Of a stretch of DNA of 64,000 bases, positions 3,492-11,435 are shown one piece after another. Origin of the DNA: Deltaproteobacteria bacterium (GTDB taxonomy: Bacteria; Desulfobacterota; Desulfarculia; Adiutricales; Adiutricaceae). The notes below the pieces were generated by a model. It did no database searches. It had not been told where the DNA came from and saw only the letters and a program-made list of their open reading frames with translations. The DNA lies in the NCBI GenBank assembly GCA_031276865.1, contig JAISMF010000020.1, positions 1 to 64,000 on the forward strand, in the 5' to 3' direction. Both the position numbers and the translations under genes were made by a program. The stretch's first letter is position 1. The number at the start of each line of letters is the position of its first letter.

Positions 3492-4502
3492 TCAGATCTC
3501 CCTTCGCGCCCGGTCTTCCTTTCCGACTTGATCCTCGTCCGGCGCCAGGCCCTCCTTTTGGGAGCGGCCGAGGTCCTCGTCTTCCATTCTTTTCAAATCG
3601 GAGGAATAGGAGCCGGGGAGGGGATCCATTTTGATGATGATCCCCTCCAGGCGGATGAGCCCCGTGGACCGGTATTCCGGACGGTTGAGGGAGAAGAGGT
3701 AGGATCTCTCCAACAGCAGGGGATGGAGGTGCGTGAGGAGGTTTTTTTTGAAGTTGTCCTGGCTGATGAGGTTTAAAACCGACACCTGGGGCAGGGCGTA
3801 GGGATTGAAGTCGAAAACCGCCGGACTTTTAAATATCCTGGAGGGCGGACAGCGCTCCAAAAGCATGGTCACGTCCAGGGCCTCCTTGGGGACGCAGCCT
3901 AAAAGGAACGTGTTGTGGGAGCGGTAGAACTCCTTGCGGCCCACGGCCCGGATCCATAGTTCGCCTTGGGAGTTTATCTCGATGTTTTTATAATTGCTCC
4001 CGAGCAGCCAGGAGGCGTGGCGCACGTTGTTCTTGATGGCCACGTCCTGGAGGCCCAGGAGCACGTTTCGAGCCGAAAGGCCCGGAGGCCCCTCGTCCCC
4101 CTCGCGGTAAACGCTCGTTTCGGAGCCGGCCCCCTGGGCCAGAAAGCTCCAGAAGCCCTCGGCCAGCCGCTCTTCTTTCGCGAGCTGGCTGTAGAGCTTG
4201 TCCTGCAAAAGGAGCGCGTTGCGGTGGGCCGCGGCCGGATGGGTGAGGAGGTAGTCCTTGCGGTATTTCCGGAAGGACCCCTGGTTTTTTTCCAGATCCA
4301 GGGCCTCGAAGGCCAGATTCAGCTCCACCGCCCTGGCGTTGGCCTTCTCTTTGCGCTTCCCGACGGTGTCGGGATGGAAGGTTTTCAAGAGGCTGCGATA
4401 CATGGTCTTAAGGACCGCGAAGAGCTCCTTTTCGCTCAGCTCGCCCACCAGGGCCGGGGTCAGGCCGAATATTTCAAAGGGGTTGCGGGCCACTTCATCC
4501 AC
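3492..4502 (-). CDS. J-domain (DnaJ-like N-terminus) protein
   Basis: NPFEIFGL...MYRSLLKTFHPDTVGKRKEKANARAVELNLAFEAL with HPD; overlaps surE stop by 8 nt. Confidence 0.7.
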   Translation of the reverse strand: MDEVARNPFEIFGLTPALVGELSEKELFAVLKTMYRSLLKTFHPDTVGKRKEKANARAVELNLAFEALDLEKNQGSFRKYRKDYLLTHPAAAHRNALLLQDKLYSQLAKEERLAEGFWSFLAQGAGSETSVYREGDEGPPGLSARNVLLGLQDVAIKNNVRHASWLLGSNYKNIEINSQGELWIRAVGRKEFYRSHNTFLLGCVPKEALDVTMLLERCPPSRIFKSPAVFDFNPYALPQVSVLNLISQDNFKKNLLTHLHPLLLERSYLFSLNRPEYRSTGLIRLEGIIIKMDPLPGSYSSDLKRMEDEDLGRSQKEGLAPDEDQVGKEDRARREI

Positions 4503-6007: not shown

Positions 6008-6721
6008 GCCTTGCTCGCGAAAACAGCCTTTCTGGAATTGAACGGAAGCCGGAGCTCTCCGGTGTGAGGGAAATTATACACCGATTAGGCGGCGTTTTCA
6101 GCTGAAAAGCGAAAACGCCTATTCGGCGAGCGTCTCCCCGGCGAGGCTTGGTCCTTCGGCGCCCTGAAACGCCGCCGGAGGCGCGGGGGGCGATGATGGG
6201 GGGGCTTTTTCTCCGATGCCAAGTGAGCCTCCCCGGGGCGAATTGGCGGTGGATGTTGATATGGTCTATATTTTAATATAATTTTAAAAATTTTTATTAT
6301 TTTAAGCGTAATAATTAAAGACAATTTTCTAAATAATGAAATTATTTCAAATTAAATCCACCCGAGGCTGAAAAGCTGATGAAACAGGTGAAAATCCGCC
6401 GCCGTCTTCGCCGGATTTTAGCTAAAGCTTTCCCGGGCGGTTTGTTCATTCCAAGCGGGAGAAAGCCGCCGAAGAACGAAAAAAGCCCCGGGTTCCGCGG
6501 GGCGCGGGTTTTTCAGCCGTTTCCGGATCTTGGCCAGGGAAAGCGGCGCCAGGTCGGGGAGCCTTGTTTAAGGGGCGGATTTTGAATTGGACGGTTCCTG
6601 GCGGCGGGAGGGCGGGGCCGCGAAGGAGAGGGCGGCGGCGGAGACGGGCCGCGCTCGATGCGCGAGGGCCGCCGAGGCGCTCCGGCCGGAGGGGTCGGCG
6701 CTTTGAGGGGCGAAAGGCGGG

Positions 6722-7921
6722 TTAGTAATCCAAGAGGGAGGAAAGATCGTCGTCGTCGTCTCCGAAATCATCGTCTTCGTCGTCATCCTCTTCCGCGGCG
6801 TCGGATTCACCGGCGCCTTCCTCGTCGGCGCTTTTTTCCTCGTCTTCTCGTTTTTCGTCCTCCGTCGGTTTCGCGGCCAGTCCCTCGACTTCCGAGTAAA
6901 CGGACGCGATTTTATTCAGGAGAGACTGGCCGTCGCCGGACTCGGCGGTCCAGGACGATATAAGCGACATCAAAGCGGAGGCGCCGCCCAGACGGTAAAA
7001 TCCGGAAAGATACGCCGAAACGGCTCCGGCCTCGCGCTCCGAGGCTCCCGGAAGATCCATGAAAAAGGAGTCGTTCACGCTGATGACGGAGTTGGGCTGA
7101 AGTTTCACAAAGCGAAGCTCTCCGGCGGGGAAAAAGGCCGTCTCCCCCTTGGAGTTGCGTAAGGACAATCCGGCCGGGGAGCACAGAAAACACGCGTCCG
7201 GCGAGTTGGATTCGGATTTGTCGTACAGGAGGACCGCGGCGGACGGGTCCGCCCCCGGCGCCAGCCTTCCCGCCGCGTTCTCCAAAGCGGCGGACGGGAT
7301 GTTCGGGGAGACGAACAAACTGGACATGTAAAAGAGCCTCTCCTTTACTTTCGCGAGTCGCGCTTCGTCCGCTGGATCGTCTTTAATGGAGGGGGCGTCT
7401 TTTACGGAAGTCGGGGCGGAGGCGCCGGTTCCGGCGTCGGCGCTTCGTTTCGTTTTCGTCTTTTTCTTGACGAACCTGGGATCGATGGGGTATTGGGGGT
7501 TTAGTTGGGGGAAAAAACCTCCGGCCGCGTACCCGTCTTTCACGGTTTTGATGATAAAGGCGAGTCGCTCCGCCCGTTCGGGATCCAGGCGGTTGAAATT
7601 GAACACGTGTTTTTCGTTTATAAACAGGGCGTTTAATTTCGTCTCAATCGATTCTATGCCGCTGAACGCGAAATGAAACGGCTCCATGCCATTGCTTTTG
7701 CCGTGAACGCCTATATCGGTTATCATGAGGCTCGCTTTGCAGTTTTTCAAAAGAGTGTCGTCATAGAGAAAGTCCACGTCTTGAACGTCTTCGTAAGCCG
7801 CGTACGATTTTATCGCGTTGGAAAGCTCTTTTAGCGGTATGGTTGGCCATAAAAAGATCCGAGGAGAGTTTAGAAGCCCGCCGCCGTACTGATTAAACAC
7901 GCCGTCGATTATATAATTCAT
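6722..7921 (-). CDS. Uncharacterised protein with two copies of a ~110-aa domain and an acidic C-terminus
   Basis: 399-aa ORF; copies at aa ~22-131 and ~202-312; ends EEDDDEDDDFGDDDDDLSSLLDY; adjacent to a related gene. Confidence 0.7.
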   Translation of the reverse strand: MNYIIDGVFNQYGGGLLNSPRIFLWPTIPLKELSNAIKSYAAYEDVQDVDFLYDDTLLKNCKASLMITDIGVHGKSNGMEPFHFAFSGIESIETKLNALFINEKHVFNFNRLDPERAERLAFIIKTVKDGYAAGGFFPQLNPQYPIDPRFVKKKTKTKRSADAGTGASAPTSVKDAPSIKDDPADEARLAKVKERLFYMSSLFVSPNIPSAALENAAGRLAPGADPSAAVLLYDKSESNSPDACFLCSPAGLSLRNSKGETAFFPAGELRFVKLQPNSVISVNDSFFMDLPGASEREAGAVSAYLSGFYRLGGASALMSLISSWTAESGDGQSLLNKIASVYSEVEGLAAKPTEDEKREDEEKSADEEGAGESDAAEEDDDEDDDFGDDDDDLSSLLDY

Positions 7922-7970
7922 TGTTATTTTCCTCGTGAAAAATGTCGCGCGGTTTTCATTTTTGATTGAT

Positions 7971-9359
7971 TTAGACGTATTTTAAGAGTTTTAAGCGTCT
8001 ACTTAGGCCAGGCGTGATAAACAACCCGTAAAAAATCCGTTTGAATTTCAAGGGGGTGAATTCTATTTCCATGGCCGAAACTTTAGCTATTCCGTAACGA
8101 GCGTTGTAAATCGAATAAACGTAATCAATCAACCCCGCGCGTTCGCATGCGGCCGCGTCGGCTTTCGCGACTAATTTCCGAGAGCAACTGGTGAGAAGGA
8201 CGGCCGCCGCGGGGAAGCAGACGTAGGTTAAAGTAAAGGCCAGACTAAACCGTTCCGTCAGACGGGTGTCGGAAATGAGCCATTTGTATCCTTTAAGTAA
8301 GAGCCGTCTTAGGGATTTTATGGAGATGAAACGGAATTCAAAAACCAAGGGTAAATATATGGCTTTCAGGAAGAGACCCAATATCAGACTCGGGATTAAA
8401 AACACCGAGAGCATTTTTAACATTTCTTTGTAATCGTTATTCACGCTTAAAGACAACGCGTAAAGAAACATGGATTTTAATTCGGTTTTAGAACATTGTT
8501 TGATCGCTTTCGACGTGAGGAACAGGTGGTGGCCTTTTTTGGCCGGAAGCATAAAGGAGTTGATTTCGGAGCTTTTATAGACCTGTATTAAAATCCGTTC
8601 TCCGACGTTGAGCTCCGCCGCCGCCTCGTTTAAAACGTTGTAAATTCTGGTTTTATCCAAAGACAATTTAGCGTCCAGATTGATGGGCTGGGCCTGGAGT
8701 TGAAACACGGCTATTTTATCCATATATCTATGGTACAGATACGCGAGCGGAGCGACTATTAATATGGGCGCCCCCAGGAGAATCCAGGGAACGAGGCAGA
8801 ACGCGTAAAATATATAAGCGTGGTAAGGTTTTAAAACGGAATCGGCGCCAGCGGCCGCCGTCTGGGAAAATGGCGCCTTTTCTTGAGGCGCGGCTTTAAG
8901 ATCTTTTTTCGCTTTGATGACGTCTTTAAGGATGTTTAGAAGGGTCGCGCGGTTCTTCGATTCAACGCTTGAGAATTCGTGCGATAACTTTTTATTGATT
9001 ATCAATTCTTTATCTACAACGTCCGCGTGGTGTAAATCGCTGAATTTAATCATGAAGCGGTCGAACGCGTCTTTCCAGTATAGCGCGTTTTCCGTCAATA
9101 TAAGCCCCGCTTTTCCGTTGGAGAATATCGAAGTGTCCAGCAGCAGGAGGATATCCGCCGGATTGATATGTTTAGCTATGGCTTTCACGGCGTTGGCGGC
9201 TATTTCCGGAGGTATGTCCGGGGCGAAGAACATTTGATCGCTTTCCGACTCGAGGATCTTTTGAACGTCTTCCTCTTCTGTTTTCTGTTTTTGGACGTCT
9301 TTAAAATAGGGATCGGAGGAATATTTTTTTAAAATATCACGTACGGAAATTTCCGGCAT
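7971..9359 (-). CDS. Membrane protein: N-terminal domain shared with neighbour plus degenerate M48 (HtpX-like) peptidase domain
   Basis: EINSFMLPAKKGHHLFLTSKAIKQCSKTELKSMFLYALSLSVNND and SRKLVAKADAAACERAG align with M48 proteins but lack HExxH; start Met at 9359 with AAGGTGG. Confidence 0.7.
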   Translation of the reverse strand: MPEISVRDILKKYSSDPYFKDVQKQKTEEEDVQKILESESDQMFFAPDIPPEIAANAVKAIAKHINPADILLLLDTSIFSNGKAGLILTENALYWKDAFDRFMIKFSDLHHADVVDKELIINKKLSHEFSSVESKNRATLLNILKDVIKAKKDLKAAPQEKAPFSQTAAAGADSVLKPYHAYIFYAFCLVPWILLGAPILIVAPLAYLYHRYMDKIAVFQLQAQPINLDAKLSLDKTRIYNVLNEAAAELNVGERILIQVYKSSEINSFMLPAKKGHHLFLTSKAIKQCSKTELKSMFLYALSLSVNNDYKEMLKMLSVFLIPSLILGLFLKAIYLPLVFEFRFISIKSLRRLLLKGYKWLISDTRLTERFSLAFTLTYVCFPAAAVLLTSCSRKLVAKADAAACERAGLIDYVYSIYNARYGIAKVSAMEIEFTPLKFKRIFYGLFITPGLSRRLKLLKYV

Positions 9360-10169
9360 TTTATCCACCTTTTATTTTAGCGATTCGACGTTGGCAGTTG
9401 AAATTAACGCGTTAAATAAATTTTCCGCGAAAGACCTTCGAGGCTTTTAAAGCTCCCTGGTTCCCCCCGGGGAGCGCCGTGAAAATAAGAGCGGGCGTTC
9501 GCCGCCGGAGACGGATAAGGCGGGGCGGAACGTTTCGTCCGGAAGCGAATTTTCCCATTTGGCCGCGACCGCTTCAGCTTACAGCCTTGGTTTCGTGAAG
9601 TCAAATTAAATTGAAAACGGCTGGGAGGAATATCGCCTGAAAGGAAAAATTAATTTCCCCGGGGCGTATGTCGTCGTTTTTTAAAGAAGGGAGATTCAAT
9701 TAACTAAAGCGTTTTTAGCGTGAATCGGACGATTTTATTCACGATGGCGGCGGGATTGTTCCATTTTCATCTCTTTTCGCGGACGGTTTATAATTTTTTT
9801 AAAACGGACGATGTTTCCGATAATTATTAAAATTCATCCTAAATTATTTACATTCGGAACCGCTCTCCTCCGGACTCCGGCGACCCGCGCCGGAATCCGT
9901 CGCGGTCCGCCCTTTCTTTTCCGTAAAACCGGATCCCCGGGGCCGGGAACGCCTGGACCCTTCAGCGGACGAGGGAAGCCGGCGAGAAATTTCGCCGGGT
10001 TTTTTCGCCGGCGCTTTTAAACTGGCGAGCCTCGAAAAGAGTCCGAGCGCCCGTCCGGCGGGGCTTTTCGCCCGCTCCGGCGAAGCTTGAAAAAGAGGGC
10101 GGCGGAAAAAGTTCCGGAGAATCTCCGGCGCCTTTTCCGCCGCCTGGGGGGGCGCTTTTTTAACGCGCC

Positions 10170-11435
10170 CTAAATCTTTCCGTCCATGGACTTCCAGCCG
10201 AAGCTTAAATCCGCTTTGTATTTTTCGAAGACCATGGCCTCGTCTTCGATGAGGCTTAGGAGCTGCGCCGAATTTAGCGAGCGGGTGAGCTGGTGGAACT
10301 TAAAAAGCCTCGCCAGAAAAAGCGGCGTCACGGAGAGCGCGAGGGCCGTCCGGCCTTCGCAATCGAGGCCGCGGAAGATCAAAGCGCCTTTGTAGATGAT
10401 CTTCACCCAGATTTCCGGATCCACGTCCAGGGATTCGAGGGGGAGTTTTTTCAGGTTTTCCAGAAGGCCGGCGTGTTCCGGAAAGTGCTTGGCCCAAAAC
10501 GGCTCGGATTGGCGGGCGATTTCCCTTATCATGTTTCCGGCGCTTTCAGGGGTGATGGTCAGATCCCGAGGCGGCAGGATCTCGGGTTTTAGATCCGTTC
10601 CCAGGATGGGGGTGGGGCGGGAGTTTCGCACCTTGAGCCAGATTTCGGGGTAGAGCTCCATGAGCTCGTAGAGGCTTTTCAGATTGGCGCGGAACTCCGC
10701 CGCCACGCCCGCGTCTATGGGTCTTCTGACGTGCCCCACCCTGGGGTCGCCCATGAAGGACTGGAAGACGGGTCCGTGCCGCACGGCTTTGACCTGCATG
10801 GTGAGTTCGCAGGCGGCGTAGTTGTCCTCGGTGGGCCAGGAGGTGTTCTCCAGGAGCTCGCGGTTGAGGGAGCCGGAGAAGGCGGCGTCCCCCAGGTTGG
10901 GATGGCGGATCCGGCGGCCGAAAACCGCCCGGAACATGGGATAGGTGAGGAGGTAGGTGACCGGGGTGTCGAAGAACTGCCTGGAGTATATGGGCGCCGT
11001 GTAGCTGGCCCCGTTTTTCAACACGGGCTCCGCAAGTCGGGGGACCCAGCTGGTTTTAACGGTGGAGATGCGGGCGTCGAAGGCCAGGACCACCTTGGGC
11101 TCCAGGCGCTGGGCCACCTCCATGAGGTTGAAGAAGCTGTTCTTCTTGAGATTTTGATCCGGAGGCGTGCTCACGTAGATCCTGGGCACGCCGGCCGCGG
11201 AGTTTAAGAACAGGTCCCGGGTGTCGTCTTGGGAGAAGCAGTCCGAGTTCACCACCACCCCTTTCAGGTCGGGGTAGTACTTCCGCAGTCCGCCCGCCAC
11301 CTTTTCCAAGGACAGCTTTATGTTGTCCATGTTGTTGTGGGAGAGGATGCCGGCGACTATGTCGGCCCCCGTGACGGAGTCGGGGTTGATCTCGGTGAAG
11401 ATCCGTCCGTCAGTTTTTAGCGCGGTCGTACACAC
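10170..11435 (-). CDS. GT-A type glycosyltransferase-like protein (GpgS/mannosylglycerate-synthase style)
   Basis: VAGILSHNNMDNIKLSLEKV..., VVVNSDCFSQDDT, VVLAFDARISTVKTSWVPRLAEPVL, GDAAFSGSLNRELL. Confidence 0.6.
   Translation of the reverse strand: MCTTALKTDGRIFTEINPDSVTGADIVAGILSHNNMDNIKLSLEKVAGGLRKYYPDLKGVVVNSDCFSQDDTRDLFLNSAAGVPRIYVSTPPDQNLKKNSFFNLMEVAQRLEPKVVLAFDARISTVKTSWVPRLAEPVLKNGASYTAPIYSRQFFDTPVTYLLTYPMFRAVFGRRIRHPNLGDAAFSGSLNRELLENTSWPTEDNYAACELTMQVKAVRHGPVFQSFMGDPRVGHVRRPIDAGVAAEFRANLKSLYELMELYPEIWLKVRNSRPTPILGTDLKPEILPPRDLTITPESAGNMIREIARQSEPFWAKHFPEHAGLLENLKKLPLESLDVDPEIWVKIIYKGALIFRGLDCEGRTALALSVTPLFLARLFKFHQLTRSLNSAQLLSLIEDEAMVFEKYKADLSFGWKSMDGKI

Follow-up and report, generated by a model that had tools for sequence, protein, structure and literature searches.

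We suggest that two adjacent genes, A and B, on the minus strand of the window (the whole 64,000-nucleotide stretch of DNA analysed) form an accessory cassette in which a membrane-anchored scaffold (B) is joined by a soluble partner bearing tandem PH-like domains (A), and which serves in defence or in envelope stress. The function is what we infer, and we put the probability of this reading at about one half. The underlying observation, made in a first-pass annotation of the sequence, was that one domain of about 110 amino acids is present three times in the two genes; it is confirmed here, and the interpretation placed upon it is partly supported. The features are listed by window coordinates, G036 denoting a relative of a second genus.

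6722..7921, minus strand: gene A, 399 aa, with two PH-like copies, a low-complexity linker and an acidic C-terminal tail
6722..6866, minus strand: D/E-rich acidic tail of gene A, which the G036 orthologue has too
6977..7333, minus strand: PH-like domain copy A2, whose DDTxFGxAK loop is degenerate; tree support 97/88
7514..7867, minus strand: PH-like domain copy A1, of the KNC...GVHG subfamily common to single-domain proteins of genus g7; tree support 99/93
7971..9359, minus strand: gene B, 462 aa if begun at the likely ATG, with a conserved N-terminal stretch, a PH-like domain and a three-TM membrane half
7974..8903, minus strand: membrane half of gene B, residues 156-465, with a possible degenerate M48/HtpX-like core
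8904..9239, minus strand: PH-like domain copy B1, spanning residues 44-155 in the 465-aa ORF; matches the BnzA N-terminus at 5.1e-16
9370..9810, no strand assigned: GC-poor region (0.465) upstream of gene B, without a convincing gene

The list of open reading frames starts gene B at a GTG at 9368 (the 465-aa ORF). The likely start is the ATG at 9359, since a Shine-Dalgarno-like stretch (AAAGGTGG) precedes it and the orthologue begins at the same residue. Gene A starts 49 bases past the end of gene B. The GC-poor region upstream is presumed to be the promoter region; no sigma-70-like site was scored within it. Matches to acidic-tail models (WRNPLPNID, ANAPC15, L10) and to MINT_RAM7 were discarded as artefacts of composition.

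The domain and its predicted fold

Aligned in pairs, the three segments score 111, 54 and 60, against means of 25-27 for shuffled sequences and above all 2000 shuffles in each case. An independent profile, built from 42 copies of the domain in unrelated bacteria with the window and its family excluded, was scanned over the 295 ORFs of the window and recovered the gene B copy (E = 1.1e-21), the first copy in gene A (2.9e-18) and the second (4.1e-7), the next ORF standing at 1.3. The first-pass annotation had proposed that the segments should find one another by profile search, and each of them is found by the 42-copy profile. A profile of the three copies themselves also matches further proteins in related genomes, with up to five copies per protein.

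AlphaFold2, given B1 with 55 relatives, predicts with a pLDDT of 91.6 a short strand followed by the conserved IP...A helix, then seven strands, at 38-94, and finally a long helix at the C-terminus, at 100-120. This bears out two earlier readings of the sequence, namely a beta-rich half with a terminal helix (here seven strands and a C-terminal helix after the IP-x5-NA helix) and a PH/GRAM-like fold, for the model is a PH superfold. The single domain modelled is the gene B copy; the gene A copies are tied to it by profile alignment and would, on that basis, share its fold. In a Foldseek search of the PDB, the best 50 matches consist almost wholly of PH, FERM-F3 or FACT-type PH domains, including RhoGEF PH, Rtt106, FERM F3 and Pob3/SSRP1, with a best E of 0.048 and a TM-score of about 0.44. 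We would hence place the domain in the PH superfold at the level of fold, not of family; a sequence search of the PDB returned no relative.

Eight columns of the domain are conserved in at least 90% of copies. The strongest block, D-D-T-x-F-G-x-A-K-x-G, sits between the first and second core strands of the PH fold; it is partly kept in B1 and A1 and mostly lost in A2. The domain had been called unrecognised, which holds insofar as no Pfam, NCBIfam or PHROG model matches it, but it already lies inside the PADLOC model for BnzA. We know of no paper that describes it, within the open-access literature searched.

A conserved pair at unrelated sites

The A-B pair recurs in G036, adjacent and in the same order, with identities of 40.6% over 475 aa and 38% over 168 aa; the gene A orthologue there keeps two domain copies, a variable linker and the acidic tail. 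The sites are unrelated. In G036 the pair lies downstream of glmM (ftsH...ybbR-glmM) and before two response-regulator genes, and in the window its neighbours are an unnamed gene and a DUF1573 gene, each present in 35 of the 37 genomes of the family. The glmM of the window genome has neither A nor B next to it. The unnamed gene (window 10170-11435) encodes 421 aa without a Pfam match.

In both genomes the pair is GC-poor. GC3 in the window is 0.545 for gene B and 0.672 for gene A, against 0.79-0.88 in adjacent genes, and the G036 pair stands at 0.357 and 0.435, where the genes upstream have 0.78-0.83 and those downstream 0.66-0.70. The low GC of gene B could partly reflect the composition of a membrane protein, though its GC3 is low as well. 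Since the pair is GC-poor in both genomes and in the window interrupts an otherwise conserved gene order, it looks like an accessory cassette that has moved horizontally and as a unit, a view drawn from two examples. Its distribution is patchy: among the 63 genomes of the class, two carry the membrane half of gene B, and nothing credible resembling it was found in 34 domain-bearing genomes.

At the junction equivalent to that of the window, no copy of the domain occurs in the ten relatives read there, G036 included, and two of them (G028 and G019) carry other, unrelated genes, which suggests that the junction between the unnamed gene and DUF1573 is an insertion hotspot. At this junction (window 6008-10169; loci L191 and L192 in the relatives) G028 has a 563-aa ATPase-like gene and G019 a GC-poor 394-aa gene. 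In G001, of the same genus as the window genome, the contig ends inside the equivalent junction, so that absence of the cassette there is unproven. Neither copy of the cassette sits inside an obvious defence island.

A phage origin is not supported. No relative was found in viral contigs, and two matches labelled 'Acinetobacter phage' look like a host contig with fadL; a record named Acinetobacter phage MD-2021a (L141, CAKLQH020000070.1) contains fadL together with a J-domain protein, and its sequence looks like that of a host. Among plasmids, nothing matched gene B.

The first-pass annotation had argued from the shared domain to a co-acting pair. That argument is not supported in this form: the domain is promiscuous and turns up as a module of many unrelated architectures, and its sharing within one operon is therefore no evidence in itself for co-action. 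The conclusion fares better than the argument, in that the same adjacent pair, in the same order, is found again in another genus, where it occupies an unrelated site. It may nonetheless be posited that A and B are independent users of a common module and neighbours by chance, as each of the three copies falls in an old subfamily of its own and tandem arrays of the domain are common in the family. We consider this quite improbable, given that the pair recurs elsewhere with its domain layout as well as its order. In the tree each of the three subfamilies is common to the window and G036, so that the A-B layout predates the divergence of the two cassettes. We note that the evidence for co-conservation is thin, two examples of the pair being known.

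The domain elsewhere, Bunzi and the M48 lead

A genome scan, which is a sample and not a census, yielded 48 domain loci in Pseudomonas, Acinetobacter, Xanthomonas, Stenotrophomonas, Lentisphaeria, Bacillus and others. By regular expressions, 18 of the 50 domain proteins at these loci carry a J-domain signature and 4 of 50 a zinc-ribbon-like motif, and Pfam confirms DnaJ, TerB, GYF_2 and HhH alongside the domain in example proteins. Relatives of the window genome also encode very large proteins with several tandem copies (up to five) and proline/glutamine-rich linkers (L024 8975-17741 in G028, L030, L025 9454-12945 in G008, L028 in G032), three of them in consecutive genes of G028; these are a lineage-specific expansion. 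The window genome itself holds one further copy, in a 200-aa zinc-ribbon protein (L029 1641-2243, G000:C42). Genus g7 has a conserved single-domain protein, close to A1, that adjoins a C5-cytosine DNA methylase gene in two genomes (L062 8696-10493, L061 3369-5384). Within the window, a divergent J-domain protein, under the Pfam cut-off, adjoins surE (3492-4502).

The PADLOC BnzA model (PDLC03833) matches every domain protein tested, covering only the first ~150 of its 544 positions outside true BnzA. A Vibrio plasmid encodes a protein pair with end-to-end matches to BnzA and BnzB (1e-177; BnzA over model positions 3-534), and the domain is thus the true N-terminus of BnzA. The same model matches many unrelated proteins through the N-terminal PH-like domain alone (L056, L073, L094, L074, L065, L113, L085), so that single-gene BnzA calls need a coverage filter.

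These matches raise the prospect of Bunzi-like anti-phage defence, with the PH-like domain sensing a phage cue and the membrane protein B acting as effector. The complete plasmid pair places the domain in a true Bunzi system, and the cassette is accessory, GC-poor, patchy and located at a variable site, all of which would suit defence. We nevertheless hold this unlikely, if worth serious attention: the BnzA match in the window is confined to model positions ~1-147 of 544, BnzB was not found in the window genome and gave one marginal match (8.7e-4) among the 37 family genomes, the flanks of the cassette are housekeeping genes, few defence-type genes occur among 93 neighbours of domain proteins elsewhere, and the domain is widespread in non-defence architectures. 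A plain Bunzi system is rejected, since both BnzB and the rest of BnzA are missing.

The membrane half of gene B has predicted hydrophobic segments near residues 184-202, 315-333 and 374-392 and a weak Pfam match to peptidase M48 (E = 0.006; 16.8 bits against a cut-off of 20.3). Four motifs (EINSF, TELKSMFLYALSLS, CSRKLVAKAD and TPGLSRRLKLL) are co-linear with M48 motifs, the HExxH position reading YALSL in the window and YSIAF in G036. As a lead from sequence, the membrane half may descend from M48/HtpX without its zinc ligands. It is then conceivable that the setting is membrane-protein quality control, B being a pseudo-HtpX (a dead M48) that provides a scaffold for genuine proteases or chaperones, or inhibits them, and A its adaptor, and the frequent fusions of the domain to J-domains are in keeping with this. 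Several results weigh against the idea, which we also regard as unlikely: Bac_export_2/FlhB scores about as well as M48, Pfam M48 finds no match in the G036 orthologue, M48 profiles from related genomes do no better on gene B than on shuffles, and hhalign of the membrane half against M48 is not significant (P = 0.12). The full-length model of gene B (pLDDT 63.9 overall) is good in the PH-like domain only and poor in the membrane half, and a structure search with this low-confidence model has PH-type matches at the top and no M48 structure among the 50 matches listed. Given the profile and hhalign results, we do not accept membership in M48; the FlhB identity, sub-threshold and no better, is set aside.

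Proposed working and comparison with known systems

For the cassette of scaffold and soluble partner that we favour, we posit that B would be an inner-membrane protein whose PH-like domain and central core, possibly a dead M48, face the cytoplasm, and that A would bind B, or the target of B, through its own PH-like domains and so be held at the membrane. The conserved loop between the first two core strands is the predicted ligand site; it is kept in part in B1 and A1, and A2, having lost the loop, would be structural. At the cytoplasmic face the complex would have a scaffolding or sensing role, not an enzymatic one. Its setting may be phage defence or envelope and protein-quality stress, two settings proposed because the same domain recurs in BnzA and in J-domain and TerB proteins.

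Though the domain is found across many bacterial phyla and forms part of a known anti-phage protein, it has no Pfam or NCBIfam model, and hence its proteins are called hypothetical. Naming it would make defence annotation cleaner and would tie Bunzi to the J-domain and TerB proteins by way of a single binding surface that can be tested; the A-B cassette offers a compact two-protein case in which to test the domain's binding target. A bolder proposal, which we rate as rather doubtful, is that the domain defines a new PH-superfold family serving as a recognition module common to defence (BnzA) and chaperone (J-domain) proteins, and that A-B is an undescribed two-gene membrane system of defence or stress with a catalytically dead M48-like scaffold.

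Among known systems, BnzA of Bunzi (PADLOC PDLC03833) has an N-terminus of ~120 residues homologous to all three window copies, whereas the window proteins lack its remaining ~400 residues. With peptidase M48/HtpX, gene B possibly shares co-linear motifs and the TM layout, but the HExxH and third zinc-ligand positions are not conserved and the score falls under the family cut-off. The J-domain and TerB proteins of Xanthomonas, Acinetobacter, Helicobacter and others have the domain in common with the cassette, often as one copy per protein, although A and B themselves contain neither a J-domain nor TerB. Finally, the bacterial PH domains (PF08000 and related families) have been predicted to bind protein rather than lipid and have links to envelope stress, one family member being under envelope-stress control (PMC2817789). 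The window domain shares with them the PH superfold, with its seven strands and C-terminal helix; it differs in matching no Pfam model and in adding a conserved N-terminal IP-x-K-x-x-x-A helix and the DDTxFGxAKxG loop.
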